Origin: Myotis daubentonii
Taxonomy: Eukaryota > Chordata > Mammalia > Chiroptera > Vespertilionidae
Direction: 5' to 3'
DNA length: 64,000 nt
Assembly: GCF_963259705.1 (NCBI RefSeq)
Contig: NC_081841.1
Coordinates: 113,620,979 to 113,684,978, forward strand
Position 1 is the stretch's first letter; each line of letters starts with the position of its first letter. A program made the position numbers and the translations under genes. A model generated the notes under the pieces. The model made no database searches. It was not told the DNA's origin and saw only the letters and a list, made by a program, of their open reading frames with translations. Positions 25,653-61,757 of this stretch are shown here, one piece after another.

Positions 25653-25832
25653 CAGCCTGTGGACACTGAGGTGATGCATCTCAGCAGCTCCAAGGGCAGA
25701 GTAGTCCTGGCTCCAGTGTCCCGAGGTCCTGATGTCCGTCAGACGAGAGCTCAGCTTGGCCAGGACCCCCCACAAAGAACAGTGCTAGGGGTGCTAACTG
25801 AGAATGGGCAGTTCAGGAAGACCTGTGACCAG
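25653..25832 (+). CDS. CCNA1: CCNA1 exon 2 (first certain coding exon)
   Basis: The acceptor ctcctgaggcAG ends at 25,652 and the donor CAG|gtaagg is at 25,833. The exon is open from its first base (QPVDTEV) into the ATG at 25,674. Residues 1-53 include the destruction box. The in-frame seven residues before the ATG match the upstream part of the human long isoform. Confidence 0.9.
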
Positions 25833-31687: not shown

Positions 31688-31725
<38 letters not shown>

Positions 31726-40780: not shown

Positions 40781-42692
40781 TGAACTGGAACAGAAGATGG
40801 TGGCATAGGTAAACACCGGAGATTGCTGCCTCGCACAACCACTTCAAAAATACAACTAAAAGACGGAACGGACATCATCCAGAACCACAGGAAGGCTGGC
40901 TGAGGGGAAATTCTTCAACTAGAAGGAAAGAGAACATCATGCCGAGACTCAGAGGAGGCGCAGTGCGGAAAATACAAAGGTGCGGAGGTGCGTGCGAGTG
41001 GGCTGGCGGCTGAGGGCGCAGTTGTCATTTTCAATCGGGAGGGAGTCTCAGGCTCTGAGCTCCAGTTCTGGGCGAGTCTCTAGGGACCCAGACTCAAACG
41101 GGAGAAGCGGGACTGTCTGGCATCGGTCGGAACTCGAGGGCAGCTTTCTCTCCGAGGTTTGCAGCGGTTGCTGGGACTCTGAGAGGCAGAGTCTCTGGGG
41201 ACGGGACTGAGAGCAGCCATAACTTCTCGCTCCGCCCGCCCTGTTGATCCCCTGTGACACGCCCCGCCCAAGCCCTGCACAGAGGCATTTGCCGGATAGC
41301 CTCAGGCAAAGGCTAGATTAGCACCTCCCCAGAGGACAGAAGTTTTCCCACTGCAGACACAGCTGATTCTCACAGCCAGTTGGCCTGGAGGTCAAATCCC
41401 ACCCAGTAATACCAAAAACAGTCTACAAGAAGACTGCGCATAAAGACCACTAGGGGGTGCACCAAGAAAGCATAAAAAATGCGGAGACAAAGAAACAGGA
41501 CAAAATTGTCAATGGAGGATATAGAGTTCATAACCACACTTTTAAGGTCTTTCAATAATTTTCTAGAAACTGCCGATAAACTTAATGAGATCTACAATAA
41601 ATCTAATGAGACCCTCGATGTTGGGATAAAGAACCAACTAGAAATTAAGCATACACTGACTGAAATAAAGAATATTATACAGACTCCCAACAGCAGACCA
41701 GAGGAGCGCAAGAATCAAGTCAAAGATTTGAAATGCAAAGAAGCAAAAAACACCCAACCGGAAAAGCAAAATGAAAAAAGAATCCGAAAATACGAAGATA
41801 GTGTAAGGAGCCTCTGGGACAGCTTCAAGCGTACCAACATCAGAATTATAGGGATGCCAGAAGATGAGAGAGAGCAAGATATTGAAAACCTATTTGAAGA
41901 AATGATGACAGAAAACTTCCCCCACCTGGTGAAAGAAATAGACTTACAAGCCCAGGAAGCGCAGAGAACCCCAAACAAAAGGAATCCAAAGAGGACCACA
42001 CCAAGACACATCATAATTAAAATGCCAAGAGCAAAAGACAAAGAGAGAATCTTAAAAGCAGCAAGAGAAAGAAACTCAGTTACCTACAAGGGAATACCCA
42101 TACGACTGTCAGCGGATTTCTCAACAGAAACTTTGCAGGCCAGAAGGGAGTGGCAAGAAATATTCAAAGTGATGAATAGCAAGAACCTACAACCAAGATT
42201 ACTTTATCCAGCAAAGCTATCATTCAGAATTGAAGGTCAGATAAAGAGCTTCACAGATAAGGAAAAGCTAAAGGAGTTCATCACCACCAAACCAGGATTA
42301 TATGAAATGCTGAAAGGTATCCTTTAAGAAGAGGAAGAAGAAGAAAAAGGTAAAGATACAAATTATGAACAACAAATACGCATCTATCAACAAGTGTATC
42401 TAAGAATCAAGTGAATAAATAATCTGATGAACAGAATGAACTGGTGATTATAATAGAATCAGAGACATAGAAAGGGAATGGACTGACTATTCTTGGGGGG
42501 GAAAGGGGTGTGGGAGATGCGGGAAGAGACTGGACAAAAATCATGCACCTATGGATGAGGATAGTGGGTGGGGAGTGAGGGCAGAGGGTAGGGTGGGAGC
42601 TGGGAGGAGGGGAGTTATGGGGGGGAAAAAGAGGAACAAATGTTATAATATGAACAATAAAGATTTTTTAAAAAAATAAGTGGAAAAAAAAA
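40781..42692 (+). mobile_element. HAL1 (half-L1) retrotransposon, full length with 13-bp TSD
   Basis: The 1,912-bp element starts near 'ggaacagaagatggtggcataggt', has a GC-rich leader of about 0.7 kb, one 282-codon ORF and a G-rich 3' UTR. It ends AACAATAAAGATTTTTTAAAA. Identical 13-bp duplications TAAAACCATATGT flank it (40,768-40,780 and 42,693-42,705). There is no ORF2, so it must use L1 ORF2p in trans. Confidence 0.93.
41479..42327 (+). CDS. HAL1 ORF1 protein (L1 ORF1p-like), intact
   Basis: Uninterrupted 282-codon frame from ATG (MRRQRNRTKLSMED..) to a stop at 42,325. Layout as in L1 ORF1p: an N-terminal charged coiled coil (about residues 20-95), an RRM-like segment (..NIRIIGMPEDEREQDIENLF.., about 115-190), and a C-terminal RNA-binding domain (..[13 protein letters not shown].. 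to ..[16 protein letters not shown]). L1 ORF1p is usually nearer 340 residues, so this is a short form. It would bind RNA as a trimer in the cytoplasm. Activity is inferred, not shown. Confidence 0.9.
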   Translation: MRRQRNRTKLSMEDIEFITTLLRSFNNFLETADKLNEIYNKSNETLDVGIKNQLEIKHTLTEIKNIIQTPNSRPEERKNQVKDLKCKEAKNTQPEKQNEKRIRKYEDSVRSLWDSFKRTNIRIIGMPEDEREQDIENLFEEMMTENFPHLVKEIDLQAQEAQRTPNKRNPKRTTPRHIIIKMPRAKDKERILKAARERNSVTYKGIPIRLSADFSTETLQARREWQEIFKVMNSKNLQPRLLYPAKLSFRIEGQIKSFTDKEKLKEFITTKPGLYEMLKGIL

Positions 42693-42705
42693 TAAAACCA
42701 TATGT

Positions 42706-43453
42706 CACCTCAAGGTTCTGTTTCCCCTCTATTGCAAGTTCAACCACTGGAAGAGGGACTGTCTCAGGGGCTAGAAGGTCCCAGGATTAGAACCTAACCA
42801 CACAATGGCCTTGAACTGATTGAGCCCAATGCTCCAGTCAGCCCCCACTAAGAGCATCACCTATGAATGGACGGAGCCAATGAGGGACTATTTACTCTGC
42901 TCTGACTCTCTTACCAAGGCCTCTTTCTTCCATAACCTGTTTGATCACTGGGGTGAATGGGCATCCTTAATGTTACCCTTTCACTCTACCCCTTCAATTA
43001 CAACCCTGGGAATCTCAGAGGCTCTAGGGAGGAGTACAGCCCCTCCCCTTATAAAGGAAAGAATGTGGCACTTTTGAATTCAAGCAGCTGGAGGCCTGGG
43101 AGCTGCAGTCCTGGGAACAAGCTGCAGGGCCTGGTCCCTCCTCCCTCAGCCTTTTCTCCAGCCTCCTAAAAGTTGTCAAGGTCATGTTATCCCTGTTACA
43201 AATTTTATCAAGAAAATGGCTTGAATAAGGATTGACTTTAAAATCTCATAGAATTTTTAAGATAATAAATAAATATAACTAAAATGAAGGGTTTTTGATA
43301 AAGCTTTTCAGTAATACTTATATATGCCTAAACATAGTTTTCCAAGGTCTTTAGTAACTTAAAACTTTGAAGCATTGCTAGGTTAAATGATACTGTAAGG
43401 TTTGCCGAAGGAGGAATACATAAGGCCACACGTGGTAAAGAATTATAAATTTA
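42706..43453. other. Unassigned stretch, possibly LTR-like
   Basis: Contains a CCTTATAAAGG TATA-like motif near 43,037 and modest open frames without family resemblance. An LTR was considered but no ends could be placed. Confidence 0.3.
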
Positions 43454-44267
43454 CTAGTGGCCAGGTGCATGAAATTCATGCACATTAAAAGGGAATTAAT
43501 AGAGGAAATATTTTAATATTGCTATTTGCCCTTTCTCTATAATAGAAGTGTCAGAGATGAAAGAAAATTAGTAAAATGTATATGAAAATCTTCCTCCTGT
43601 TAGAGTCTGGGACATGCCGTGGGACCCAGAGTCAAGCCCCCGCCCACCCGCGTGCACCTCAAAATCACACAAGACCCAGACCCAGCTGACCACCCCCCCC
43701 ATTAGGCGAGATCCGGACCTGGCCGGCCCCACCCCCATCAAGACCTGCCGGGTGGGGGGCGCAGCCTCAGGTCCCCCAGCCTGGTGCCAGGCAGGGGGCG
43801 CAGCCTCAGGTTCCCCGTCAAGCCCCGCCTGGTGGGAGGCACAGCCTCAGGTCCCCTGTCAAGCCGTGCTGGGCGGGGGGCACAGCCTCGGGTTCCCCAG
43901 CACACCCTCAGGTCCCCCGGCCCAGTGCTGGGGCATGGGACATGGCCTGAGGTCCCCCTTCAAGCCCCTCTGGGTGGGAGGCATGGCCTGAGGTCCCCCG
44001 GCCCAGCGCTGGAGCGGGGGATGCAACCTGAGGTCCCCTGTCAAGCCCCACCAGGCAGGAGGCACGGCCTGAGGACCCCCGCTGGGTCAGGGGTGCAGCC
44101 TCAGGTCCCCTGCCCCACCCTGGCCCGGCGCCACACAGCCTCAGGTTCCTGCTGATCGCTCGTTACAGCTTGTTACGGGAACCCCACCTCTGCTGTGGGT
44201 GCAGCCATCTTGTGAGGGCATGATGGAGTGAGGGTCAATTTGCATATTACCTCTTTATTATATAGGA
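43454..44267 (-). mobile_element. HeliBat-type Helitron with internal minisatellite
   Basis: The inverted 3' end CTAGTGGCCAGGTGCATGAAATTCATGCAC is at the left and the inverted 5' end TTATTATATAGGA at the right. The G+C-rich interior is a tandem repeat. Non-autonomous. Confidence 0.85.
43740..44140. repeat. GC-rich minisatellite inside the Helitron
   Basis: Repeated 'gcctcaggtcccc..cagc' style units of roughly 35-60 bp. Open frames through it (Gly/Ala/Pro/Ser-rich) follow from the repeat and are not taken as genes. Confidence 0.85.
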
Positions 44268-44340
44268 TTAGGTCATCTGGAAAATCAGATGGGTTGAGCC
44301 CCAAAATTGCACCAGCACCCAGGGATGGAGAGTCAGAGAT

Positions 44341-44560
44341 TTTAATATATATATATTTTTATTGATTTCAGAGAGGAAGAGAGAGGGAGAGAGAGATAGA
44401 AACATCAGTGATGAGAGTGAATCATTGATTGGCTGCCTCCTGCATGTTCCACAATGGGGATCCAGCCCAAAACCCAGGCATATGCCCTGACCAGGAATCG
44501 AACCATGACTTCCTGGTTCATAGGTTGATGCTCAACCACTGAGCCACACCAATAGGGTGG
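44341..44560 (-). mobile_element. Ves-like SINE
   Basis: Minus strand, with a TA-rich tail at 44,342-44,355 and a tRNA-like head ending 'gagccacaccaatagggtg'. Flanked by GAGTCAGA copies. Confidence 0.8.
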
Positions 44561-44568
44561 GAGTCAGA

Positions 44569-45424
44569 ATCCTAGGAAGGTCCAGAGGAGAAGGATAATG
44601 GTCTTAGCAAGTGAAATGTGGTCTAAGTGAAAGAGAATGTCAGTTGTGAAGTGGTCTAAAGGTCAGTTGCCCGGGGCGGAGTGGTTGATTTAATTATTTG
44701 ATCATACCTAACAGATACAAGTTATTAAAACTCTAGATATTTTTAAATAATATGAAATACTGAAACATTAATTCTAGACAAGTTTTAAGTTTGCCTGCCT
44801 TTTAGCTTTTATTGCAGAAAGTCTATAAAGTGTACTTGTGACTATTAAAATAATGTCTGGTGCTTTGTTGAAGGTGTGTTATTTGAAAGTAAGAGTATGT
44901 TTAAAGTGCATTCATAAACTAAGAAATTCTGGTCATTTACTTTTGGGTTATCATTGAAAAATTGTAATTTCTAAGAGTTAAAAATTCAAATGAAATTAGA
45001 AAAAAATAATATGGTTGTGATAATAGAAGGCATAAAGTATAGAGATACATTTTTGCAGGACAAGGATTGAAATTGAATTATTCTAATGATGGTTATTTCT
45101 AAATAGCTTAAAAGGTTTGTGAAAATTGTAGAAAAGTTTGTAAAAGTTTTAAGTTTGTAGAAAAAAAAACAGGCTCCAGTCCCCTTCCTCCACCTAATTT
45201 CCCCCTAAGGACTAGAGATGCTTTCATTACACTTTTTCATGCCTTTGTTGGTGTGGGGGAAATCTGCCTGTCCAGCTGCTGCGGAGTAAGTCCTTTCTCA
45301 AAGCAGGGCAATGCTGAGATGAAAGGATATGGAGTTACCTGCCCACACAACAGTCCCCAGGTGACAACTGTGAGTCAGGACCTGATCACTCCAGATGGCT
45401 GAAAGTACTCCTCTCCTAGTATTT
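44569..45424. other. Unassigned AT-rich stretch
   Basis: No gene or repeat was recognised. Confidence 0.4.
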
Positions 45425-45442
45425 CTAACAACCCCACTTTTT

Positions 45443-45762
45443 CTTTCTTTTTTTTTAAAATCAACGTATCTTCCTTCTCCAGGTCTTTCAAAGCAGACCA
45501 CTTGTACTGTGAACTAAGTTCACATTTGTTTTTCTTTCTTTCTTTTTTTTTTTACATATTTTATTGATTTTTTACAGAGAAGAAGGGAGAGGGATAGAGA
45601 GTTAGAAATATCGATGAAGGAGAAACATCGATCAGCTGCCTCCTGCACACCCCCTACTGGGGATGTGCCCGCAACCAAGGTACATGCCCTTGACCGGAAT
45701 TGAACCTGGGACCTTTCAGTCTGCAGGCCAACGCTCTATCCACTGAGCCAAACCGGTTATGG
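45443..45762 (-). mobile_element. Ves SINE with 3'-transduced sequence, 18-bp TSD
   Basis: Identical CTAACAACCCCACTTTTT copies at 45,425-45,442 and 45,763-45,780 bracket 320 bp. On the minus strand this is a Ves (about 45,762-45,545), its A-rich tail, then about 72 bp of unrelated sequence (about 45,530-45,459) that ends in TTTT, then a second A-rich tail. The extra segment lies inside the duplication, so it was inserted together with the SINE. Confidence 0.85.
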
Positions 45763-46051
45763 CTAACAACCCCACTTTTTAAAAGAGGAAAGCAACCTAC
45801 ATTCCTTACCTGCAAAGACTGCCATGAACCACATGACCAAGCAAGGTACCAGGCTATTTCCCTGAGGCACTCACAATGGCTTCAAAGTCATTCTTCATTT
45901 CTTAAAGCTTTCTGGTGATATCCAGAGTCTGGACATGTCTCTTTCAGATATGACATTCCAGTCAAAGTCTTGCTTAATATAACCACAATTGGAAACTGGT
46001 TTTATTGAATTCATGCAAAGAATCCTATTGCCATGCCTCATTTATTAAGAA

Positions 46052-46524
46052 CTAGAGGCCTGGTACACGAAATTCATGCACTTGGGGAGGTCCCTCAGCT
46101 CGGCCTGCACCCTCTCACAGTCTGGGAGCCCTCAGGGAATATCCGACTGCTGGCTTAGGCCCAGGGGGAGTGGGCCTAGGCTGTCAGTCAGACATCCCTA
46201 GTGCTATTGTGGAGGCAGGAGAGGCTCCCGCCACTGTCACTGTTCTTGCCAGCTGTGAGCCTGGCTTCTGGCTGACCAGCACTCCCCCTGTGGGAGCACA
46301 CTGACCACCAGGGGGCTGCTCCTGCGTTGAGCATCTTCCCCCTTGTGGTAGGTGCACACCATAGAGACTGGTCAACTGGTCGACTGTCTGGCCCCTGGTG
46401 GTGAGTGCACATCATAGCAAGCGGTTGGGCACCTTAGCATATCATTAGCATATTAAACTCTGATTGGTTGAACGGACGACTGGATGATCAGACACTTAGC
46501 ATATTAGGCTTTTATTATATAGGA
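46052..46524 (-). mobile_element. HeliBat-type Helitron
   Basis: The inverted 3' end CTAGAGGCCTGGTACACGAAATTCATGC at the left and TTTTATTATATAGGA at the right. Shares the 'ctgaccaccagggggc' body with the others. Confidence 0.88.
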
Positions 46525-47341
46525 TTGCCAAATTCTGGAGGGATCAGGTAGGGAGTAAAATATATAATTTACCAAATTGCTTTAAGAAAATAAAAAGGTT
46601 CCTTATGTCTGGAAAAATAAAAGGATTAAAAATTAACAATACTTCCAAAAAAGGTTATAAAAATTATATAATTATTTTCAGTTCATTCAGTCCTATAATA
46701 AATTTTTTTGTTTCTCCCGATTTTTCCTGCCAGTACTTCCATAAATTCAGATACTCTAGTTCTAATAATTTTCATCCAGTTCAATGAGGATGATCTGAAA
46801 ATGTCAGAGTCTTTTCCATGGATCCCTCAGAAGATGTAACATTTTCCTAAATGCATTACAACAAAACTGTCTCTAAATGACAAGAAGAAATTTAAAATGA
46901 CATGGTTATGAATTTGATTATAATGCAAATGATATGGAACCTTGTCCTTTCTGCAAAACACAATATTTCAGAATAACAATTAGAGTTATAAGTGAAAGTA
47001 TATCAGAGTTATTATTTCTTTATTTGAAAAAGCTTCCCAGTTACCTTAAGTATAAAATTTTTCCTTCATAAGGAGAGAAAATAAATCCTTGAGGCATTCC
47101 AGGGCCTATTGGAATAACCTAAAGCCAATTCTAGGTCAAAAAAAGTTTCTTAAAATTCAAACCCTAGGAAGGTTGTCAAATTTATTTAACCAAAAGATTA
47201 TATATCATCCTTATTATTATGAAACAGTATTAGATTATTCATTCATTCAAAGTGACAAAAGGGTATTAAACACAAACATAGGCTAGCAAAACTTCAGTTC
47301 CCACATTAAAGATCACCTTTTTAAAGCATTAAAATAATATA
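46525..47341. other. AT-rich stretch, possibly ERV internal sequence
   Basis: The segment 46,790-46,960 resembles 20,281-20,470 in the leader of the first provirus ('..gtcagagtc.ttttccatgg..', '..catggttat.gattt..aatg.aa.tgat..'). No coding frame survives. Confidence 0.35.
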
Positions 47342-47811
47342 CTAGAGGCCCGGTGCACAAAAATTTGTGCACTCGCGAGGAAGGGGGTGTCCCTCAGCCT
47401 GGCCTGTGCCCTCTCGCAGTCTGGGACCCCTCAGGGGATGACCACCTGCTGGCTTAGGCCCACTCCCCGGGGGATTGGGCCTAAGATGGCAATCAGACAT
47501 CCCTCTGGCAGCCCGGCAGCCCTCGGGGGATGTCCACTTGCCAGCGGGGAGCAGGCCTAAACTGCAGTCGGACATCCTTAGCACTGTTGAGGAGGCAGGA
47601 GAGGCTCCCACCACCACCCCTGTACTGGCAGCCATCAGCCTGGCTTGTGGCTGAGCAGAGCTCCTCCATGTGGGAGCACCCTGGCCACCAGAGGGCAGCT
47701 CCTGCATTGAGCGTCTGCCTCCCGGTGGTCAGTGTGTGTCATAGTGACCAGTCATTCCCAGTCTTTCTGCTGTTAGGGTCAGTTTCCATATTACCCTGTT
47801 ACTATATAGGA
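47342..47811 (-). mobile_element. HeliBat-type Helitron, first of an abutting pair
   Basis: CTAGAGGCCCGGTGCACAAAAATTTGTGC at the left to ACTATATAGGA at the right; the next Helitron starts at the following base. Confidence 0.87.
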
Positions 47812-47917
47812 TAGAGGCCTGGTGCACGGGTGGGGGCCGACTGGTTTGCCCTGAAGGGTGTCCCGGATCAGGGTGGGGGTACAGTTAATTACCATGTTTG
47901 CCTATTATTAGATAGGA
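47812..47917 (-). mobile_element. Short HeliBat-type Helitron, second of the pair
   Basis: Begins TAGAGGCCTGGTGCACGGG and ends TTATTAGATAGGA. At 106 bp it is a strongly deleted copy sharing both termini with the family. Confidence 0.7.
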
Positions 47918-48611
47918 TAACAATTTTAATAATTTATAGAACTTTTGCTTCCTGGGCCGAAACAGGAAAGACTTTTTTCCCCTTTTAACAGACTAGAAAA
48001 GATTAAACAAATTCTGCATTAGCTTACTTTAGATTCATTTACTTAATTAAATCTATTATTCAGATTACCTATAATTTCCTTTTTAATATTTCTCTTCACA
48101 ACTCTTCCATAACTTTCACAAAGCTTTCTGCAATATTCACAAGCCTTTTTACCCATTCAGAAATAATCAGCTTGAAACTCACTTTCTTTTTCCTTCAAAA
48201 ATGCATCTCCGTGCCTCATGCTTTCTATTACCAAAACTATACAATTTCTTTCCAATGAGTTAGACTTCTTAACTCTTAGAAACCTTAATTTTTAGGTGAC
48301 CAACAAAAAGTAAGCAGTTAGCATTCTTTAGATTGGCAAATACATTCACTAACAGTTTTAGCGGTGTTTTCTAGCTTTTCTGTAATAAAAGGTCAAAAGT
48401 AGGCAAACACAAATTAATATTTCAGTATCCATTTATTTCAAAAAATCTAGCTATTTAATAATTTCTACTATTTAAACCAGCAGAACTCCAAAGTTTTAAG
48501 TTACCAAGGACTTTACTTTTTTTTCTTTACAATGTGGGAGTGGCCCCTGCCCAAGTTCACTTCTATAGCTCAAGCCCTTCTAGGAGAAAAACTTGGGGAT
48601 TTAAAAGGTTT
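47918..48611. other. Unassigned AT-rich stretch
   Basis: 'ctcttcacaactcttccata.ctttcaca' near 48,093 recurs at about 48,948, suggesting a shared repeat or duplicated ERV segment. No coding frame. Confidence 0.35.
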
Positions 48612-48945
48612 ACCTATATAATCAAAGTGTAATATGCAAATCGACCAAACAGCCAAACAGCGGAATGACCATCTGGACGACGATCCAGGACCACACTATG
48701 ACACACACTGGTGCCAGGCCGGCCAAGGCAGGTGGGATACAATTGGTTGGGGGCCTGACCATCGCCCCATGATCGTTCTGCAGAGGGAGGCCCAGGCCAC
48801 CAGCTGGTGGGGTGATCAATGGGGGTGGGAGGGGGAGAGATCCGCGATTGCCCCAAAGAGGGAGGCCCAGGCCACCGACTGGCAGGCTGTGGGAAGCCCG
48901 GGTCCCAGGTACCGGAGGGAAGCTGGTGCTGGTAGCCAGGGGACG
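48612..48945 (+). mobile_element. HeliBat-type Helitron, 3' end missing
   Basis: Starts ACCTATATAATCAAAGTGTAATATGC; no terminal hairpin/CTAG was found, so it is truncated at about 48,945. Confidence 0.65.
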
Positions 48946-49367
48946 ATTTCTCTTCACAACTCTTCTATAGCTTTCACAAATAATGTGCAAGGCCTACTCT
49001 TGCACAACCCAGACAAGAGCCTCACACCATGTCTTCCCAAACACTAATCTCCTCTTGTTCCCAGTTAAGAGGATATTTAAGAATGAGGCAAAGCAGTATT
49101 TCAGTAAAATACCCTTTTCCTTTTTCTTCATTGGCAGATAAGTGTAAGTAGCCCAATACCCCAAGATCCGTCCCAATGGAGTGTTTTTGGGAGGATTGAG
49201 CCACCAGCACACATCACTGAACAATTTAAGCAAGATTACAGGCAAAGTTACACCAGGCAAAAACCACCCTAATATACAATATTTACAAGTGCACACAACC
49301 CACAGACAAGAACCTCACACCATATCCTTTTCTTTCCAGCCACAGAAACCTCAGAATGCACTGCATT

Positions 49368-49425
<58 letters not shown>

Positions 49426-50449
49426 AAGTAGAGCAATGTCTCTTGTCCCAGAGTGGATCAGACTGAGGGCTTGGAGACCAGGCAAGGACCACTGGAGGTC
49501 CCTTGCCACCCTGACCTGATGATGCTCACCCAGTAAATGAATGCCTTTAACCCAGATGAGAGCAGCCAATGCTTCTCATGCCATACAAACACATTTGATT
49601 CCTCCTTCTGTCATACAGAAATGCTTGATTCAACTTACATCTTAGGTGAGATGACGGGGATTGCTGAGGCTGTGATTGGGATTCAAAACAGGAAAATTCC
49701 TGGCAGTGCTGCAAATAAAAGAGTCCAGGCCTCAGCCTCAGGAATCTTCAGTCCAGGCAGCAAGCAGGATCCCTGGTACTCACCTCAGAGGAGTCCCTTG
49801 CTTATGTCTCTCCAGAGTTGCCAGATTATGTAAACAGACAACCAAGGGGTCTGAGCTGCCTGTCACTACTTTAGCCAATTATGCAGAGACAGGGTTGTAT
49901 CAAATATGAGCGTTTATTCCAATACTGCCAGCAGTACGGGAGAGCAGCACATCATCCACAAAAATCTGCTCTGTACCCCACCAGGTGCTTATATTGGGTA
50001 GAAGGACAAAGATTACACGGGGAAGTAGGAATTACAGGCATGGGAAAGTAGGCATGGGATAATCATTACAGGTTACAAGTCATGCAGGCTGCAGGGGTGG
50101 GGGGTTACAAGTCATGCAGGCTGCAGGGGTGGGGGAGGGGGAGGGAGAGGGTGGGGGAGGGGGAGGGTGGGCACCTCTGGGCATCCTAGGACCAAATTGC
50201 AGTTAATAGGGTTGGGGGTTGTAAAGAGCAAGTGCCTCCTGCCACAAGGTTGTAAATCTTTCCATAATGATAGGCGGTTCTCAGAAAAAGGGTGGACTGC
50301 ATTCTGATGTTAGCTCCCATGTCCCAGGGTGTACAACTCTTGGTGAGGTTAGAATGTGCTTTCTCTCATAAGAACAGAACCATCATAGTTAGCAACATGA
50401 TTAATATTTCTTATAATTAGTTCCCAATATTCTATTTCTGCCCATAACA
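48946..50449 (-). mobile_element. Second gammaretrovirus-like ERV, 5' part
   Basis: Minus strand: LTR (50,449-49,829), a primer-binding-site-like TGGCAACTCTGGAGAGAC (49,823-49,806), and a leader with a GTGAGT donor-like motif near 49,783. A broken matrix-like frame follows (..TPLGRILGYW.. near 49,190, ..ILKYPLNWEQE.. near 49,070). It ends at a truncated Helitron. A (CA)n microsatellite at 49,371-49,423 sits in the leader. Confidence 0.55.
49829..50449 (-). repeat. LTR of the second ERV1
   Basis: On the minus strand it begins TGTTATGGGC and ends GTTTACA. It has a TATA-like CCAATATAAGC near 49,995 and AATAAA near 49,915. Two perfect 32-bp tandem copies (50,071-50,102 and 50,103-50,134) lie in U3. 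The outer end is tentative. Confidence 0.6.
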
Positions 50450-51035
50450 TTTTCTCTCCTAAGTTTTAAAATTAATTAGGTGTGCTTAATATGCTTGAAA
50501 AATTACAGGGGAAGCTCTGCCAAGTAAGAATTAATAATAACTATGTTTAATTATATACATACATTTTTATTAAAATGGATGATCTGGAAATTTCAGTGTG
50601 CTCTATGAAGGAACTTGCAAATATTCAGAGTTGAGTTCAAATAGGAAATTCTTAGGGGTAGCAAGTGTCCTTCTGTGACACCAGGCAAACCTAGAGTAAT
50701 AGTTGCTTATGAGAGTCCTCTGGCTGTAGTACTCCAGATGTGTGTGATTCACACATTGGGACATTTATGACTTGTTTACAGCATTCAGTACCCACTTCCA
50801 ATGAGGCCAGTGCATAAAAATCTTGCATATTGTTTATTCTTTATATATTAAAACTCTATATTAAATCTAAGAATATAAACTTTTATGTCATTTCATAACA
50901 ATTATTATTTGCCAAGAAATATTATCTTAGAATATTATATCTTACTTAACAGTAAGGTTCTTTGTCATTTGTTTTACGGTCAAGTCTATAACCATGTCAT
51001 TTTAAGTTTGTCATTTATCACTCTTATGACTTTGT
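50450..51035. other. Unassigned AT-rich stretch
   Basis: Flank of the 12-kb L1 insertion; nothing recognised. Confidence 0.4.
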
Positions 51036-51055
51036 TCAAAATATTACTAATTTTT

Positions 51056-51345
51056 TTAATGTTTGTTTATATTTTTATTTATTTTATTTTATTTTATTTT
51101 ATTTTTTACAAATTATTGCTTTATTACCCAGAAATTACATGGAACCTTCATAATAAAAATTATACATATACCATAATGTTCTCAACAGCACTTTCACTTG
51201 GATTCTTTCACAGACTTTGCTCATTACAGACCAGTCTAATTATTCATGTACATTCTTTCTACTGTGGTCTTATTACTACCTGTGTAGGGATGCTAACCAA
51301 CATTTCAGCAATCCCTGCACTCTGATATGTATACTTTTCAGCAGC
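51056..51345 (-). other. Probable 3'-transduced segment of the L1
   Basis: On the minus strand the L1 3' UTR ends in AATAAAATAAAATTT and a purine tail at about 51,345. About 240 bp of non-L1 sequence follows, then AATAAAGCAATAATTTG and repeated AAAATA. The target-site duplication comes only after this second tail, so the segment was carried with the L1 RNA. Confidence 0.75.
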
Positions 51346-54233
51346 TTGGCTTTCTTTCTTTTTCTTTTTTTAAATTTTATTTTATTGCTTACAGTATTAC
51401 AAAGGGTATTACATATGTGTCCCTTTTTTTCCCCTGCCCTTGACAATCCCCTGGCCTCCCCTACCCCGCAGTGTCTTATGTCCATTGGTTATGCTTATAT
51501 GCATGCATACAAATCCTTTGGTTGATCCCTTACACCCCTCCATCCTGCCCCCCACCCCTCCCCGGCCTTCCCGCTACAGTTTGACAATCTGTTTGAGGCT
51601 GCTCTGCCTCTGTATCTATTATTGTTCAAAAGTTTATAATGGTCTCTATTATCCATGAATGAGAGAGATCATGTGGTATTTTTCCTTCATTGACTGGCTT
51701 ATCTTACTTAGCATAATGCTCTCCAGTTCCATCCATGCCGTTGCAAATTGTAAGAGTTCCTTCTTTTTTACAGCAGCATAGTATTCCATCGTGTAGATGT
51801 ACCACAGTTTTCTAATCCATTCATCTACTGATGGGCACTTAGGCTGTTTGCAGATCCTAGCTATGGTGAATTGTGCTGCTATGAACATAGGGGTGCATAT
51901 ATCCTTTCTGATTGTTGTTTCTGGTTTCTTGGGATATATTCCTAGAAGTGGGATCACAGGGTCAAATGGGAGTTCCATTTTTAGTTTTTTGAGGAAACTC
52001 CATACTGTCTTCCATAGTGGCTGCACCAGTCTGAATTCCCACCAGCAGTGCACGAGTGTTCCTTTTTCTCCACATCCTCTCCAGCACTTGTCATTTGTTG
52101 ATTTGTTGATGATAGCCAGTCTGACAGTGTGAGATGGTACCTCATTGTTGTTTTGATTTGCATCTCTCAGATGATTAGTGACTTTGAGCATGTTTTCATA
52201 TGTCTGTTCGCTTTCTGAATGTCCTCTTTTGAAAGGTGTCTATTTAGGTCCTTTGCCCATTTTTTGATTGGATTGTTTATCTTCCTTTTGTTAAGTTGTA
52301 TGAGTTCCCTAAAAATTTTGGAGATTAGGCCCTTATCAGATATGACATTGGCAAATATGTTTTCCCAAGCAGTGGGTTTTCTCATTGTTTTGTTGATGGT
52401 TTCTTTTGCTGTGCAGAAGCTTTTTATTTTGATGTAGTCCCATTTGTTCATTTTCTCTTTAGTTTCAAGTGCCCTAGGAGCTGTATCAGTGAAGAAATTG
52501 CTTCAGCATATGTCTGAGATTTTGTTACCTTTGGCTTCTTCTAAAATTTTTATGGTTTCCTGTCGTACATTTAAGTCCTTTATCCATTTTGAGTTTATTT
52601 TTGTGTATGGTGTAAGTTGGTGATCCAGTTTCATTTTCTTGCATATATCTGTCGAATTTTCCCAACACCATTTATTGAAGAGACTATCTTGGCTCCATTG
52701 TATGTTCTTGCCTCCTTGGTCAAATACTAATTGAGCATATTGGTTCGGGCCGATTTCTGGGCTCTCTATTCTATTCCATTGATCTATATGCCTGTTCTTG
52801 TGTCAGGACCAGGCAGTTTTGAGAACAGTGGCTTTGTAGTACATCTTGATATCTGGTATTGAGATCCCACCTACTTTGTTCTTTTTCAGGATCGCTGCAG
52901 CTATTCGGGGTCTTTTTTTATTCCAGATGAATTTTTGGAGAGTTCGTTCTAGATCTGTGAAGTGTGCCGTTGGTATTTTAATGTGAAGTGCATTGAATTT
53001 ATAGATTGCTTTGGGTAGTACAGACATTTTAATGATGTTGATTCTACCAATCCATGAACACGGTATGTTCTTCCATCTGTATATGTCTTCCTCTATCTCT
53101 TTTTTCAACATCCTGCAGTTTTCTGAGTAGAGGTCTTTTACCTCTTTAGTTAAGTTTATTCCTAGGTAGCTTACTTTTTTTGGTGCGATGGTAAACGGGA
53201 TTGTTTTTATAATCTCTCTTTCTGAAAGTTCACTATTGGTGTATAGAAATGCCTCAGATTTCTTGGGGTAAATTTTGTATCCTGCTACATTGCCAAATTC
53301 ATGTATTAAGTCTAGTAGCTTTTTGATGGAGTCTCTAGGGTTTTGTATGTATAATATCATGTCATCTGCAAATAAGGACAGTTTTACTTCCTCTTTTCCA
53401 ATTTGGATGCCTTTTATTTCTTCTTCTTGCCTAATTGTGATGGCTAATACTTCCAGTACTATGTTGAACAGGAGTGGTGAGAGTGGGCATCCCTGTCTTG
53501 TTCCTGTTCTTAGGGGAAATGGTGTTAGTTTTTGTCCATTGAGTATGATGTTGCCTGGGGGCCTGTCATATATGGCTTTTATTATGTTGCGGTATGATCA
53601 TTCTACTCAGCCTTGCTGAGAGTTTTTATCAAAAATGAGTGTCGGATTTTGTCAAATGCTTTTTCTGCATCAATTGATATGACCATGTGTTTTTTTTCTT
53701 TCAATTTGTTTATGTGATGAATCACGTTTATTGATTTGCGGATATTGTACCATCCTTGCATCCCTGGGATAAATCCTACTTGGTAATGGTGTATGATCTT
53801 TCTGATGTACTGCTGGATCCGATTTGCTAAGATTTTGTTGAGGATTTTGGCATTTATGTTCATGAGGGATATTGGCCTGTAATTCTCTTTCATTGTGTTG
53901 TCTTTACCTGGTTTTGGTATTAGGGTGATGCTGGCTTCATAGAACGAGCTTGGAAGTGTTCCTTCCTCTTGAATTTTTTGTAGTAGTCTGAGGAGGATAG
54001 GTTTTAGTTCTTCCTTGAATGTTTGGTAAAACTCCCCTGTGAAGCCGTCTGGCCCTGGGCTTTTGTTTGCTGGAAGCTTTTTGATGACTGCTTCAATTTC
54101 TTCCATAGTTATTGGCCTATTGAGATTTTTGGATTCTTCCTTATTGAGTTTGGAATGTTATATTTTTCTAGGAATTTGTCCATTTCCTCCAGGTTGTCTA
54201 GTTTGTTGGAGTAGAGCTGTCCATAGTATTTTT

Positions 54234-56140
54234 ATTTTTTTAATTAAATCTTTATTGTTCAGATTATTACATTTGTTCCTTTCCCCCCCCCCCCATAACT
54301 CCCCTCCTCCCAGTTCCCGCCCCACCCTCCGCCCTCACTCCCCACCCACTGTCCTCATCCATAGGTGCACGATTTTTGTCCAGTCTCTTCCCACATCTCC
54401 CACACCCCTTTCCCCCCCAGGAATAGTCAGTCCATTCCCTTTCTATGTCCCTGATTCTATTATAATCAACAGTTCATTCTGATCATCAGATTATTTATTC
54501 ACTTGATTCTTAGATTCACTTGTTGATAGATGCATATTTGTTGTTCATAATTTGTATCTTTACCTTTTTCTTCCTCTTCCTCTTCTTAAAGAATACCTTT
54601 CAGCATTTCATATAATCCTGGTTTGGTGGTGATGAACTCCTTTAGCTTTTCCTTATCTGTGAAGCTCTTTATCTGACCTTCCGTTCTGAATGATAGCTTT
54701 GCTGGATAAAGTAATCTTGGTTGTAGGTTCTTGGTATTCATCACTTTGAATATTTCTTTCCATTCCCTTCTGGCCTGCAAAGTTTCTGTTGAGAAATCAG
54801 CTGACAGTCGTATGGGTATACCCTTGTAGGTAACTGCGTTTCTTTCTCTTGCTGCTTTTAAGATTCTCTCTTTATCTTTTGCTCTTGGCATTTTAATTAT
54901 GATGTGTCTTGGTGTGGTCCTCTTTGGATTCCTTTTGTTTGGGGTTCTCCGCGCTTCTTGGACCTGTAAGTCCATTTCTTTCACCAGGTGGGGGAAGTTT
55001 TCTGTCATTATTTCTTCAAATAGGTTTTCAATATCTTGCTCTCTCTCATCTTCTGGCACCCCTATAATTCTGATGTTGGTATGCTTGAAGCTGTCCCAGA
55101 GGCTCCTTACATTATCCTCGCATTTTTGGATTCTTTTTTCATTTTGCTTTTCCGGTTGGATGTTCTTTGCTTCCTCGCATTTCAAATCATTGACTTGATT
55201 CTTGCGCTCCTCTGGTCTGCTGTCGGGTGTCTGTATAATATTCGTTATTTCAGTCCGTGTGTGCTTAATTTCTAGTTGGTTCCCCAATATAAGATCGAGG
55301 GTCTTATTAGTTTTCGTGTAGATCTCATTAAGTTTATCGGCAGCATCTAAACAGTTCTTGAGAGACCTTAAAAGTGTGGTTCTGAACTCTATTTCTTCCA
55401 TTGACAATTTTGTCCTCTTTCTTTGTCTCCGCATTTTGTTATGCTTCTTTGGTGCACCCCCTAGTGGTCTTTGTTCGCAGTCTTATAGATAAATCTTGAT
55501 TGTTGTAGCTAATTCCAGGGAGGGTTTGACCTCCAGGCCAAGTGGCTATGAGAATCAGCTATGAGTGTCAGCAGTGAGAGAACCTCTGTCCTCTAGGGAG
55601 GTGCTAATCTAGCCTTTGCCTGAGGCTATCCGGCAAATGCCTCTGTGCAGGGCTTGGGCGGGGCGGGTCACACAGGATCAACAGGGTGGGCCGGAGAGAG
55701 CAGTTATGGCGGCTCTCAGTCCTGTCCCCAGGGGCTCTGCCTCTCTGAGTCCCAGCACCCCCTGCAAAGCTCGGAGAGAAAGCTGCACTCGCTCTGACCG
55801 AAGCCAGACAGTCCCGCTTCTCCCGTTTGAGTCTGGGTCCCTAAAGACTCGCCCGGATCTGGTGCTCAGAGTCTGCGACTCCCTCCTGATTGAAAACAAC
55901 AACCGCGCCCTCCGCCACCAGCCCGCTCTGCGCACTCCGCACCTCAGAATTTGACTTCAGCACTGCGCCTCCTCTGAGTGTCCGTATGCGTTTCTCTTTC
56001 CTCCTACTTGTAGGACTTCCACTCAGCCAGCGTTCCTGTGGTTCTGGGTGATGTCCCTTCCGTTTTTTGGTTTCACTTTTGAAGTAGTTGTTCAAAGCAG
56101 CAAACTCCGGCGTTAACCTATGCCGCCATCTTGGTTCTCT
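54234..56140 (-). mobile_element. HAL1 retrotransposon inside L1 ORF2, 17-bp TSD
   Basis: Full-length 1,907-bp HAL1. CTGTCCATAGTATTTTT at 54,217-54,233 and 56,141-56,157 is the duplicated L1 target. It starts on the minus strand at 'gagagaaccaagatggcggcatagg' and ends AACAATAAAGATTTAATTAAAAAAATAAA. Minus strand, same orientation as the host L1. Confidence 0.95.
54586..55434 (-). CDS. HAL1 ORF1 protein, intact (copy in L1 ORF2)
   Basis: Uninterrupted 282-codon frame (MRRQRKRTKLSMEE.. to ..[10 protein letters not shown]), the same length as the other two intact copies. By eye it differs from the 60.2-kb copy at about 19 residues, without length changes. Coiled coil, RRM-like (..NIRIIGVPEDEREQDIENLF..) and C-terminal domain are all retained. 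No ORF2 is downstream. Whether the protein is made is unknown. Confidence 0.92.
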   Translation of the reverse strand: MRRQRKRTKLSMEEIEFRTTLLRSLKNCLDAADKLNEIYTKTNKTLDLILGNQLEIKHTRTEITNIIQTPDSRPEERKNQVNDLKCEEAKNIQPEKQNEKRIQKCEDNVRSLWDSFKHTNIRIIGVPEDEREQDIENLFEEIMTENFPHLVKEMDLQVQEARRTPNKRNPKRTTPRHIIIKMPRAKDKERILKAARERNAVTYKGIPIRLSADFSTETLQARREWKEIFKVMNTKNLQPRLLYPAKLSFRTEGQIKSFTDKEKLKEFITTKPGLYEMLKGIL

Positions 56141-57469
56141 CTGTCCATAGTATTTTTTAACAATCATTTGTATTTCTGTGGGGTCTGTTGTTATTTCGCC
56201 TCTATCGTTTCTGATTTTGTTTATTTGGGTCCTCTCTCTTTGCTTCTTGGTGAGTCTGGCTAGAGGTTTGTCAATTTTGTTTATCCTTTCAAAGAACCAG
56301 CTCTTGGTTTCATTGATTTTCTGTATTGTTTTTTTTGGTCGCTATGTCATTTATTTCAGCTCTAATCTTTATTATCTCCTTCCTTCTGCTCACTCTGGGG
56401 TTTTCTTCTTGCTGTCTTTCTAATTCTTTGAGTTGTAGAGTTAGATGATTTACTACCATTTTTTCTTGTTTTTTGAGATAGGCCTGTAGAGCTATAAACT
56501 TCCCTCTCAGTACTGCTTTCATTGTGTCCCATAGGTTTTGGATTGTTGTGTTTTCATTGTCATTAGTTTCCAGGATGTTTTTGATTTCTTCTTTGATCTC
56601 ATTGTTAACCCAATCAATATTTAATAACATGCTATTCAGCTTCCAAATGTTTGAGTATTTGAGGTTGTTTTTATTGTAGTTTATTTCTAATATTATGCCA
56701 TTGTGGTCTGAGAGGATGCTTTTTATGATTTCAATCTTCTTGAATTTGGGGAGACTTTGCTTGTGACCCAATATGTGGTCTATTTTTGAAGATGTCCCAT
56801 TAGCACCTGAGGTGAACGTATATTTTGTGGCTTTGGGGTGAAGTGTTCGGAAGATGTCAATTAAGTCCATCTGATCTAGTGAGTCATTTAGGATTGCTGT
56901 TTCTTTGCTGAGTTTTTGTGTAGCAGATTTATCCAGTGATGTCAGTGGTGTATTAAATAAAGTTCCCTACTATGATTGTATTGTTGTCGATCTCTCCTTT
57001 GATATCTTCCAGGAGTTTTTTTATGAATTTGGGTGCTCCTGCATTGGGTGCATATATGTTTATCAGGGTTATATCCTTTTGTTGTATTGATCCCTTTAGT
57101 ATTATGAAGTGGCCTTCCTTATCTCTTGTTATGGCCTTCACTTTGAGGTCTATTTTGTCCAATATAAGTATTGCTACCCCAGCTTTTTTTTCATTTCCAT
57201 TTGCCTGAAAGATATTTTTCCATCCCTTCACTTTCAGTCTGTGTGAGCCCCTTATTCTGTGGTGGGTCTCTTGTAGACAGCAAATATATGGGTCATGCTT
57301 TTTTATCCATTCAGCCACTTGATGTCTTTTGATTGGACCATTTAGTCCATTTACGTTTAAAGTTATTATTAAAAGGTACCTGTTTGTAGCCATTTCTATT
57401 TTTTTGTGTGGCTGTTTTCTTTATGGGCTTTTTATTTCTTCTTTTTACACCAGTCCCTTTAGCATTTCT

Positions 57470-58454
57470 TGCATTGCTGGCTTGGTGGTGATAAACTCCC
57501 TTAGCCTTTTTTTGTCTGTGAAGCTCCTTATTTCTCCTTCAATTTTGAATGACAGCCTTGCTGGGTAGAGTATTCTTGGATTCATTACTTTGCTTTGCAT
57601 CACTTTGTAAATTTCCGTCCATTCTTTTCTGGCCTGATGTGTTTCTGTTGAGAAATCATTTGATATCTAATGGGAGAACCTTTGTATGTAACTTTCTGTC
57701 TCTCTCTTGCCGCCTGTAAGATTCCCTCTTTGTCCTGAACATTTGCCATGGTAATTATGATGTGTCTTGGTGTGGGTCTTTTCGTGTTCACCTTGTTTGG
57801 GACTCTCTGGGCTTGTGTGACTTTTTTCTTCCCCACCTCAGGGAAGTTTTCTGATATTATTTCTTCGAGTAGGTTTTCTAATCCGTGTTCATCTTTCTGT
57901 TGTTCTGACACCCGTATTATTCGTATGTTGTTTCGTTTCATGTTGTCCCAAAGCTCCCTTAGGCTCTCTTCCTGTCTTTTAATTTTTTTCTCCAATTGCA
58001 GTACAGTTTGGGTGTGTTTTGCTTCCTTGTCTTCTAATTCACTAATTCGGTCCTCCGCTTCTCCTAGTCTACTATTGATACTTTCAATGGTGTTTTTTAT
58101 TGCAGCTATATCACTCTTCATTTCTTCTTGGGTCTTACTTAAGTTGTTGATTTTTTCATCTGTTTCTTCTAGCTTCTTCCATATGTTATTGATTTTTTCA
58201 TCTGTTTCTTCTTGCTTCTTTCATAGGTAGTTGACTTTTTCATCTGTTTCTTCTAGCTTCTTGCATAAGTTGTTGACTTTTTCCTCCGCCGGGTTTATGC
58301 ACTCTAGAACCCTTATTCTGAATTCTTTTTCTGTCATGTTGCATGCCTCTGTATCATTTAGCTGCTTTTCTGCCGAGTCCTCTTTTTCTTTCCTCTGGGG
58401 GTTTCTTTGTCTGCCCATGTTTGATCTCACTGACATATCTAGACGTTGAGTCAT
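57470..58454 (-). pseudogene. L1 ORF1 pseudogene with coiled-coil repeats
   Basis: L1 ORF1p layout: MGRQRNPQRKEKED.. N-terminus, a coiled coil containing repeated KKxEETDEKxNNL units, RRM-like ..NNIRIIRVSEQ.., and a C-terminal domain. One stop near 58,222 and a frameshift near 57,660 break it. The closest intact relatives would be the source L1 elements elsewhere in the genome. Confidence 0.85.
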
Positions 58455-59201
58455 TCAGTGGCTGCTCCCTGGGTGGCAGTGACTCCTTGGGCTGTGGTTG
58501 CTCTTTGGGCGGTTGCAGTAGCAGCTGCTCCTCAGTTGGCAGCAGCTCCTCTGGTGGGTGCTGTTCACAGCTGTGGTGGCTCTTTCGGCTGGTGGGGTGA
58601 GGTTTCACGTACAGCTGCTGTTCCTCAGACAGTGGGTGTGGTGCTCAGGAGGCTGCTGTTGCTTGGATCTGCTGAGTTGATTTAAAGGCACAAAATACAA
58701 CACAACAAGGCACCACGTACCATGCACTAAACACAAATATATTCACGATATTAATAACCCCAAATAAAGGTGACCACCCAAATTAAGAGAATTAGGGGAT
58801 AAGGAAGAAAAAAGAGAAAAAGATAAAAGAGAAAATGAATGAAAAGTAGGGACCAAAAAAAAAAGGAGTGCAAAAATGCAATTGGGAAAAAGGAGGGGGG
58901 AAAATAAAAGAGAGAAAAGAAAAGAAAAGAACAAAAAAAGAGTGAAAAGAGTGAATGAAGTGGAAGAGGGGAAGAGACTATTAAAATGAGGAGAAAACTC
59001 CTATAGAACTGCCACTAATCCCAACAAATTCCAGCAACAGATCCCTGGAGATGAATGCAAACTAGAAACAACCAATAATATCAAGAGAGGCAAGGGAAAA
59101 CAGAAGCACAAAAATAACCGGGGGGGATGGGTGGAGGGAGGGGAAAAACCAGTAGAAAAAAATAAAAAGAAAAAGCAAAACAGCCTCACAACATGTCCTA
59201 A

Positions 59202-59226
59202 AACACACACACACACACACACACAC
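59202..59226. repeat. (AC)n microsatellite in L1 5' UTR
   Basis: About 12 AC units followed by an imperfect AAC-type stretch, in the purine-rich L1 leader. Confidence 0.9.
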
Positions 59227-59828
59227 AAACAAGCAACAACAACAACAAAAACAATATACTCAACAATCAAGCAAACAGCAACAAAACAATAGAAAGATAA
59301 AAGAAGAAAAAAAGAAAAAAATTTTTGGATAGTGAAGAAAGATAAGGGGTATGCGTATAAAGATATAGAGCAGTGGATAGGAAATAGGATATATAATAGG
59401 GTGAAATTTTGACAGGAGGTAGACAGAAGGAATAGGGAAAATCTAGAGCAGGAATAGAATAAGAGAAACAGTACAACAAAAGGGGAAAAGTGAGGGAGAG
59501 GGTTTTAGCATAGAGGTAAAATTGAGGTAGGGAAAATTGTTGCTAAAGGAACGATGAAAATAGAATGGAGAACACTAATCCCAAAATAAAATAAAGAGAA
59601 AATAAAATGGCACTTTAAAAAATGGTAAAATGGTAGCAGTAATAATACTGGTTAAAAATAAGAATGTAGCCGAAACCGGTTTGGCTCAGTGGATAGAGCG
59701 TTGGCTTGCGGACTGAATGGTCCCAGGTACGATTCCGGTCAAGGGCATGTACCTGGGTTGCGGGCACATCCCCAGTGGGAGATGTGCGGGAGGCAGCTGA
59801 TCGATGTTCCTCTCTCATTGATGTTTCT

Positions 59829-61757
59829 TTTTTTTTTCCAATGCAAAAGCAGAGGGTCCTTTTTTTTTTTAATTAAATCTTTATTGTTCAGATTATTACA
59901 TTTGTTCCTCTTTTTTTTCCCCCCATAACTCCCCTCCTCCCAGTTCCCGCCCCACCCTCCGCCCTCACTCCCCACCCACTGTCCTCATCCATAGGTGCAC
60001 GATTTTTGTCCAGTCTCTTCCCACATCTCCCATACCCCTTTCCCCCCCCCCAAGAATAGTCAGTCCATTCCCTTTCTATGTCCCTGATTCTATTATAATC
60101 AACAGTTCATTCTGTTCATCAGATTATTTATTCACTTGATTCTTAGATTCACTTGTTGATAGATGCATATTTGTTGTTCATAATTTGTATCTTTACCTTT
60201 TTCTTCCTCTTCCTCTTCTTAAAGGACACCTTTCAGCATTTCATATAATCCTGGTTTGGTGGTGATGAACTCCTTTAGCTTTTCCTTATCTGTGAAGCTC
60301 TTTATCTGACCTTCAATTCTGAATGATAGCTTTGCTGGATAAAGTAATCTTGGTTGTAGGTTCTTGCTATTCATCACTTTGAATATTTCTTGCCACTCCC
60401 TTCTGGCCTGCAAAGTTTCTGTTGAGAAATCCGCTGACAGTCGTATGGGTATTCCCTTGTAGGTAACTGAGTTTCTTTCTCTTGCTGTTTTTAACATTCT
60501 CTCTTTATCTTTTGCTCTTGGCATTTTAATTATGATGTGTCTTGGTGTGGTCCTCTTTGGATTCCTTTTGTTTGGGGTTCTCCGCGCTTCTTGGACCTGT
60601 AAGTCCATTTCTTTCACCAGGTGGGGGAAGTTTTCTGTCATTATTTCTTCAAATAGGTTTTCAATATCTTGCTCTCTCTCATCTTCTGGCACCCCTATAA
60701 TTCTGATGTTGGTACGCTTGAAGCTGTCCCAGAGGCTCCTTACACTATCCTCGCATTTTTGGATTCTTTTTTCATTTTGCTTTTCCGGTTGGATGTTTTT
60801 TGCTTCCTCGCATTTCAAATCATTGACTTGATTCTTGGGCTCCTCTGGTCTGCTGTCGGGCGTCTGTATAATATTCGTTATTTCAGTCCGTGTATGCTTA
60901 ATTTCTAGTTGGTTCCCCAATATAACATCGAGGGTCTCATTAGTTTTCTTGTAGATCTCATAAAGTTTATCGGTGGCTTCTAAACAGTTCTTGAGAGACC
61001 TTAAAAGTGTGGTTCTGAACTCTATATCTTCCATTGACAATTTTGTCCTGTTTCTTTGTCTCCGCATTTTGTTATGCTTCCTTGGTGCACCCCCTAGTGG
61101 TCTTTGTTCGCAGTCTTATAGTTAAACCTTGATTGTTGTACCTAATACCAGGGAGGGTTTGACCTCCAGGCCAAGTGGCTATGAGAATCAGCTGTGTCAG
61201 CAATGAGAGAACTTCTGTCCTCTAGGGAGGTGCTAATCTAGCCTTTGCCTGAGGCTATCCGGCAAATGCCTCTGTGCAGGGCTTGGGCGGGGCGGGTCAC
61301 ACAGGATCAACAGGGTGGGCCGGAGAGAGCAGTTATGGCGGCTCTCAGTCCTGTCCCCAGGGGCTCTGCCTCTCTGAGTCCCAGCACCCCCTGCAAAGCT
61401 CGGAGAGAAAGCTGCACTCGCTCTGACCGAAGCCAGACAGTCCCGCTTCTCCCGTTTGAGTCTGTGTCCTTAAAGACTCTCCTGTATCTGGAGCTCAGAG
61501 TCTGCGACTCCCTCCCAATTGAAAACGCCAACCTCGCCCTCTGCCGCCAGCCCGCTCCGCGCACTCCGCACCTCAGAATTTGACTTCAGCACTGCGCCTC
61601 CTCTGAGTGTCCGTATGCGTTTCTCTTTCCTCTTAGTTGTAGGACTTCCACTCAGCCAGCGTTCCTGTGGTTCTGGGTGATGTCTGTTCAGTTTTTTAGT
61701 TTCATTTTTGAAGTAGTTGTTCAAAGCAGCAAACTCCGGCGTTAACCTATGCCGCCC
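59829..61757 (-). mobile_element. HAL1 retrotransposon inside the Ves, with short 3' transduction
   Basis: Flanked by GATGTTTCT at 59,820-59,828 and 61,758-61,766. The 5' end lacks about 15 bp relative to the 54-kb copy. At the 3' end (minus strand) the tail A-run (59,870-59,860) is followed by 22 non-HAL1 bases (59,859-59,838) and a second A-run (59,837-59,829) before the duplication. Confidence 0.93.
60219..61067 (-). CDS. HAL1 ORF1 protein, intact (copy in Ves)
   Basis: Uninterrupted 282-codon frame (MRRQRNRTKLSMED.. to ..GLYEMLKGVL) with the same three-domain layout. Being inside a SINE that is itself inside an L1, it is the youngest layer of that stack. Expression is not demonstrable from sequence. 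Confidence 0.92.
   Translation of the reverse strand: MRRQRNRTKLSMEDIEFRTTLLRSLKNCLEATDKLYEIYKKTNETLDVILGNQLEIKHTRTEITNIIQTPDSRPEEPKNQVNDLKCEEAKNIQPEKQNEKRIQKCEDSVRSLWDSFKRTNIRIIGVPEDEREQDIENLFEEIMTENFPHLVKEMDLQVQEARRTPNKRNPKRTTPRHIIIKMPRAKDKERMLKTARERNSVTYKGIPIRLSADFSTETLQARREWQEIFKVMNSKNLQPRLLYPAKLSFRIEGQIKSFTDKEKLKEFITTKPGLYEMLKGVL

Follow-up and report, generated by a model that had tools for sequence, protein, structure and literature searches.

A recently active HAL1 family of a vesper bat, with a predicted ORF1 protein that lacks the canonical trimer signature

Two questions about L1 (LINE-1) retrotransposons are open: why L1 needs a trimer of its ORF1 protein (ORF1p; ORF, open reading frame), and for what reason ORF1 is retained in an element that is not autonomous. 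Both are raised by a 64-kb stretch of DNA, without N, from contig NC_081841.1 of the bat Myotis daubentonii, called the window here. It contains three copies (h1, h2 and h3) of a HAL1, or half-L1, a type of element reportedly described by Bao and Jurka in 2010. Our analysis confirmed that they are copies of a recently active HAL1 family, an L1-derived, ORF1-only retrotransposon without long terminal repeats (non-LTR), and what appears to be new, judged from sequence, is that the ORF1p of this bat family lacks the canonical trimer signature. The original prediction, made from the letters of the window, had placed three HAL1 copies there, each with a 282-codon ORF1 and no ORF2, and the ORF calls and exact target-site duplications bear it out at the following coordinates.

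40781-42692, plus strand: HAL1 copy h1, the whole element including its A-rich tail, of an older class
41479-42327, plus strand: ORF1 of h1, open, 282 codons
40768-40780 (5' copy) and 42693-42705 (3' copy), plus strand: target-site duplication of h1, exact, 13 nt
54234-56140, minus strand: HAL1 copy h2, inserted into the ORF2 of a resident L1, with ORF2 pieces on both sides
54586-55434, minus strand: ORF1 of h2, open, 282 codons
56141-56157 (5' copy) and 54217-54233 (3' copy), minus strand: target-site duplication of h2, exact, 17 nt
56122-56132, minus strand: AAGATGGCGGC at the 5' end of h2
59829-61757, minus strand: HAL1 copy h3, of the youngest class, inside a short interspersed element (SINE)
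60219-61067, minus strand: ORF1 of h3, open, 282 codons
61758-61766 (5' copy) and 59820-59828 (3' copy), minus strand: target-site duplication of h3, exact, 9 nt
60813-60860, minus strand: codons 70-85 of h3, the place of the two L1 ORF1p trimerization motifs; motifs absent, prolines at 70 and 74
59838-59859, minus strand: 22-nt tag at the 3' end of h3, with an A-run on either side
31093-33609, minus strand: older HAL1 copy with a broken frame, within an intron of a cyclin A gene

In all three copies ORF1 is followed by a short 3' untranslated region (UTR), an A-run and the duplication, with no ORF2 between ORF1 and the A-tail, and the flanking duplications TAAAACCATATGT, AAAAATACTATGGACAG and AGAAACATC match the element ends of h1, h2 and h3 to the base. 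The ORFs are equal in length yet differ, as had been predicted: their alignment is free of gaps and counts 27, 43 and 55 differences per pair over 846 coding sites. The RRM domain PF02994 and the C-terminal domain PF17490, which resembles a double-stranded RNA-binding domain, score above the Pfam cutoffs in all three proteins, and human LINE-1 ORF1p (2ykp/2yko) is their best relative of solved structure, both in sequence and in fold. We take the SINE that hosts h3 to be of the Ves type, and AAGATGGCGGC presumably resembles the YY1 site with which human L1 starts.

A search of the genome (2.13 Gb, 121 contigs) gave at first look 3514, 5013 and 6272 candidate places for three leader types, sets that may overlap and that exceed what chance would give. 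Target-site duplications were found at 47 of 58 HAL1 loci, compared to 1 of 58 with the 3' flank swapped from another locus; the nick is strictly T/A in 16 of these 47, run-on A's blurring the remainder, and an exact AAGATGGCGGC is present at the 5' end of 41 of 49 full-length copies. The copies thus combine what defines a HAL1, namely an L1-type ORF1, no ORF2, multiple copies with a common leader and 3' UTR, and duplications, and their descent from L1 is seen in the homology of ORF1 as well as in a weak likeness of the 3' UTR. The multiple copies with duplications rule out a single-copy host gene such as L1TD1. This domesticated, ORF1-derived gene (PMC4161310) resembles HAL1 in having an ORF1-type protein without ORF2, but it is a host gene, whereas bat HAL1 consists of many insertions with duplications. 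In databases, bat HAL1 ORFs carry the L1TD1 name. The closest protein matches are named Myotis myotis, Cnephaeus nilssonii and Pipistrellus kuhlii, and a Myotis myotis entry (P0002) is one residue apart from a copy in this genome (L008).

How young is the family, and do the three window copies belong to one burst? Scoring the best 138 of 64645 first-look candidates for the h3 ORF gave 137 without an internal stop, a list that leans to open copies because it is ranked by ORF similarity. The leader query is blind to the ORF; here the best 40 of 3514 candidates were scored and 29 non-h3 places were cut out. The mean pairwise non-CpG divergence of the young set picked by leader is 1.37%, which gives 2.9 million years (My) at a rate of 2.366e-9, printed in PMC4436864 as "per site/my" and taken here as per year. 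On a common basis (ORF, all sites), the young class is 4.2 My old, the h1-type class 8.6 My, and the class of the broken copy, called old below, 14.4 My. The 282-codon frame is open in 25 of 29 young copies (10 further listed places lie outside this count; L038, the same place as L002, is kept in; L033 is scored as not open for its rearranged start, its frame being open from codon 11), in 1 of 10 h1-type copies (10 fetched among 39 listed relatives), and in 0 of 18 old copies (20 fetched of 39 listed, with L068 and L069 dropped as giving no ORF1 alignment). L031 and L038 are duplicates of h3 and L002, and L025, L033, L039 and L042 stand outside the codon comparisons. Among the places listed, the h1 leader has no relative above 94% identity; h1 is an older survivor, outside the young burst. 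Since h1 is of an older class, in which 1 of 10 fetched relatives is open, the three window copies are not one cohort, and the recent mobility that had been predicted for them holds for the class of h3 (about 3 My) and not for the three together.

In the older HAL1 ORF1s L073, L075 and L086, one CAGT unit has been lost from the CAGTCAGT stretch, which shifts the frame. We rejected a subfamily with an inherited broken ORF1 as the source of this 4-nt deletion common to three old copies: the three carriers do not cluster, so the loss is recurrent.

How would such an element move? We consider it probable that the family was moved by its own ORF1p in cis and L1 ORF2p in trans, with a lineage that kept its frame and an ORF1p that became altered. 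A source copy would be transcribed from its own 5' leader, a putative promoter; the mRNA would give ORF1p, which would bind its own RNA in cis via the RRM and the C-terminal domain; and ORF2p of a resident L1 would join in trans and copy the RNA into other places of the genome, with A-tails and target-site duplications as the traces. Fresh insertions would decay neutrally and the next burst would be founded solely by sources with a working ORF1, so that the lineage would keep its frame. This ORF1p lacks the L1-type trimer signature, two prolines having been fixed at that place during an almost purely amino-acid-changing step, and its oligomeric state may have changed. L1 ORF2 frames of at least 1285 amino acids were found in 34 of the 150 places listed, and one L1 (L087) has a long ORF2 frame together with an open ORF1 of 324 amino acids. 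The A-tails, the duplications and the presence of L1s with long open ORF2 are consistent with mobilization of HAL1 in trans by L1 ORF2p.

The open frames had been read as a sign of selection for a functional ORF1p. For single copies this fails, the singletons being neutral-like; for the lineage, a function of ORF1p can be argued from frame maintenance and an excess in the McDonald-Kreitman test, not from the ratio of nonsynonymous to synonymous divergence (dN/dS). The young and old classes are separated by 55 fixed substitutions (45 in codons 1 to 117, 10 in codons 118 to 282) and one in-frame 18-nt indel, and over these 55 there is no fixed frameshift or stop. With rates taken from old copies, where 277 singletons go with 30 frameshifts and the share of stops is 4.7%, the expectation between the two classes is 8.5 disabling events (P 2e-4), and a gentler calibration, in which private changes equal half the pairwise distance, gives 5.5 to 5.8 (P 0.003 to 0.004). 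That the HAL1 lineage held its reading frame between bursts is thus supported statistically (P 0.0002 to 0.004). In the McDonald-Kreitman comparison of the old and h1-type classes, fixed nonsynonymous to synonymous changes (N:S) are 25:0, with 21:0 in codons 1 to 117, against 237:104 for singletons (Fisher p 0.0003). Leaving out codons 5 to 15, beside the indel, gives 22:0 (p 0.0009); 0 of 22 synonymous has a P of 0.002 against the computed neutral share; and five thresholds from 0.6 to 0.9 give 32:4 to 10:0 (p 0.0002 to 0.037). Because the excess separates old from h1-type copies and none separates h1-type from young, it is placed on the step shared by the h1-type and young classes. The N-terminal half of the predicted ORF1p shows signs of adaptive change.

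Several results weigh against a maintained and functional ORF1p. Among young copies the N:S ratio is the same for shared variants (22:14) as for singletons (79:46), by which selection on single copies is rejected; single copies decay neutrally after insertion. Net dN/dS by the Nei-Gojobori method (NG86) is 0.99 between young and old and 0.57 between young and h1-type, and about 3, on a very small dS, between h1-type and old. The same method gives 0.58 to 0.70 within the mostly dead older classes, a baseline that sets 0.99 above neutral and 0.57 at neutral, and purifying selection is therefore unsupported by dN/dS. The value near 1 that the original prediction had named as telling against it was found for young and old, not for young and h1-type. 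Frameshifts alone reach P 0.04 under the gentler calibration. The McDonald-Kreitman test is weak for old and young (44:10, p 0.077; 0.050 to 0.30 over thresholds) and null for h1-type and young (12:7, p 0.6), the classes are small (old 18, h1-type 11, young 54), and "fixed" means fixed at a threshold. Lastly, the 3' UTR of HAL1 resembles that of the resident L1 weakly, in common order and parts, local scores against three L1 3' UTRs being 57, 54 and 52 and the shuffle maxima 48, 46 and 47 (100 shuffles each).

Could ORF1 then be a passenger, L1 proteins alone moving HAL1 RNA in trans and the frame being open merely because the copies are young? The neutral-like singletons, the drop of openness with age and a between-class dN/dS that is not under the neutral baseline all fit this explanation, but it has to face a frame held over 55 fixed substitutions and a nonsynonymous excess on one step, and we regard it as unlikely.

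The two halves of the element may differ in their histories. Per 100-nt window, h1 differs from the young class by about 7 to 17% up to about element position 925 and by 1 to 7% beyond, and synonymous divergence likewise drops, from about 0.13 in codons 1 to 117 to about 0.05 in codons 118 to 282. The element thus looks like a mosaic, its 5' half being older and its 3' half younger and common to both, behind which may lie recombination by template switching. A template switch alone does not explain the 22 to 25 nonsynonymous changes to 0 synonymous, since synonymous differences would come along.

What has changed in the protein itself? L1 ORF1p carries two trimerization motifs, RhxxhE, which are described as conserved throughout the mammals (PMC5940361), and a coiled coil is described for all vertebrate L1 (PMC9410894). 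With h scored as I, L, V, M, F or A, no RhxxhE was found before the RRM in 83 HAL1 copies (54 young, 11 h1-type including h1, 18 old) or in h2, and the Pfam trimerization domain PF17489 is unreported for all three window ORF1s. The resident L1 of this genome has both motifs. A protein tree of 34 rows sets the HAL1-type sequences apart by a branch supported at 99/94 (midpoint root); their side holds 18 rows, 10 from vesper bats, 1 from Molossus and 7 phyllostomid-like (one named Artibeus), and the motif is found in 0 of these 18 (P0013 being incomplete) versus at least one motif in 15 of the 16 other rows. The N-terminal half of HAL1 ORF1p appears, by this comparison, to have lost both RhxxhE motifs.

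Two of the fixed changes, S to P at codon 70 and L to P at codon 74, place prolines within the trimerization heptads. Heptad scores of h3 stay at or below 0.62, down to 0.25, in windows starting before residue 99 (every seventh window), and are 0.25 to 0.38 just before the RRM; elsewhere, three L1s reach 1.00 and an older HAL1-type protein (P0008) reaches 0.88. AlphaFold models were made of monomers, are of moderate confidence, and do not give the oligomeric state. For h3 (mean predicted local distance difference test [pLDDT] score, 70.4) the model has a helix at 12-68, a gap at 69-93 with pLDDT below 50, and a helix at 94-118; for the Myotis L1 protein P0048 (mean, 74.6) it has one helix at 34-136, the last third with pLDDT of 52 to 65. 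The coiled-coil part of HAL1 ORF1p is thus modeled as a broken helix. We propose, tentatively and with more doubt than conviction, that bat HAL1 ORF1p may work without the classical parallel trimer, the motifs having been given up after the loss of ORF2, the prolines fixed under positive selection, and amplification continuing to the last few My with L1 ORF2p in trans. In the resident L1, ORF1 (58121-58286 and L087) has 42-nt tandem repeats (14 residues, two heptads) in its coiled-coil part; the L1 coiled coil seems to have been lengthened here while HAL1 lost its trimer motifs.

The same features would suit a protein whose main target is the L1 particle, where it would recruit L1 ORF2p to HAL1 RNA in the role of partner or competitor. 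The retained RRM and C-terminal domain, the lost trimer signature and the amino-acid excess in a fast N-terminal half are what one might expect if the protein had become adapted to another element, but we hold this idea to be improbable. Least of all do we expect the copies to be separate 3'-deleted or spliced L1s and no family, as the repeated origin of HAL1 from L1 (PMC5753468) might allow, in the face of their common leader and 3' UTR, their 46 to 69% protein identity to the window L1 ORF1s and their own tree branch.

We compare a HAL1 family probably moved by its own ORF1p and L1 ORF2p with the systems already known. HAL1s are ORF1-only elements that arose from L1 several times (PMC5753468); in guinea pig, ORF1 coding has been kept for about 29 to 44 million years (PMC3627910); families less than 1% divergent exist in guinea pig and marmoset (PMC3183009); and HAL1 activity is described in rat (PMC8535693). 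A young family with an intact ORF1, singled out by the original prediction as the notable part, is thus in print, as ORF1 kept in guinea pig and as young families in guinea pig and marmoset, and the Myotis lucifugus list of PMC3183009 does not name HAL1. Like these families, the bat copies have ORF1 only, an L1-like ORF1, a short 3' UTR and an A-tail; they differ in their vesper bat host, the absence of trimer motifs and a step with excess amino-acid change. L1 ORF1p shares with HAL1 ORF1p the RRM, the C-terminal domain and a fast-evolving N-terminal half, but has the two RhxxhE motifs (both present in L087), whereas HAL1 ORF1p has neither. In primate L1 ORF1p, the coiled coil evolves episodically and stays functional (PMC7449397); bat HAL1, by contrast, has no ORF2, and among its changes are prolines within the trimer heptads. 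The literature searched on HAL1 showed no account of the trimer motifs in its ORF1p, with the founding paper outside this scope and novelty to that extent unproven.

Some further observations concern single copies and neighboring sequence. The 22-nt tag of h3 occurs at six other genome places, directly after AATAAA, AATACA or AATGAA in an LTR-like repeat; it may be a 3' transduction, carried along from a source that sat in a repeat of this kind, or the result of template switching from the repeat's transcript, and none of these six exact places has a HAL1 directly before the tag. The fourth, broken copy (31093-33609) falls into pieces 73 to 89% identical in three frames, with an insertion between 31687 and 31923; over the 279 codons compared it has no stop. 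Motifs at 25776 and 34293 (plus strand), which we take to be those of cyclin A, flank this copy, which is therefore placed in an intron of a cyclin A gene; the predicted broken copy is thus confirmed, the name CCNA1 being the prediction's own. At 43764-47629 lie GC-rich repeat units of about 65 to 81 nt, the better pairs matching the reference copy at 78 to 84%. No HAL1 relatives were found in viral and prokaryote contigs; mammalian-type L1 ORF1 proteins occur in database entries labeled Delftia sp. MAG and Colwellia sp. (P0058 and P0071), most likely as contamination.

The HAL1 lineage of this bat offers a natural variant in which cis RNA binding and trimerization may be separated. In an ORF1p that works without a trimer, cis RNA binding would have been uncoupled by nature from an architecture held to be essential for L1. 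If HAL1 ORF1p is trimeric, the RhxxhE motifs are not what makes the trimer; if it is monomeric or differently assembled and yet needed, the trimer would be no general requirement.

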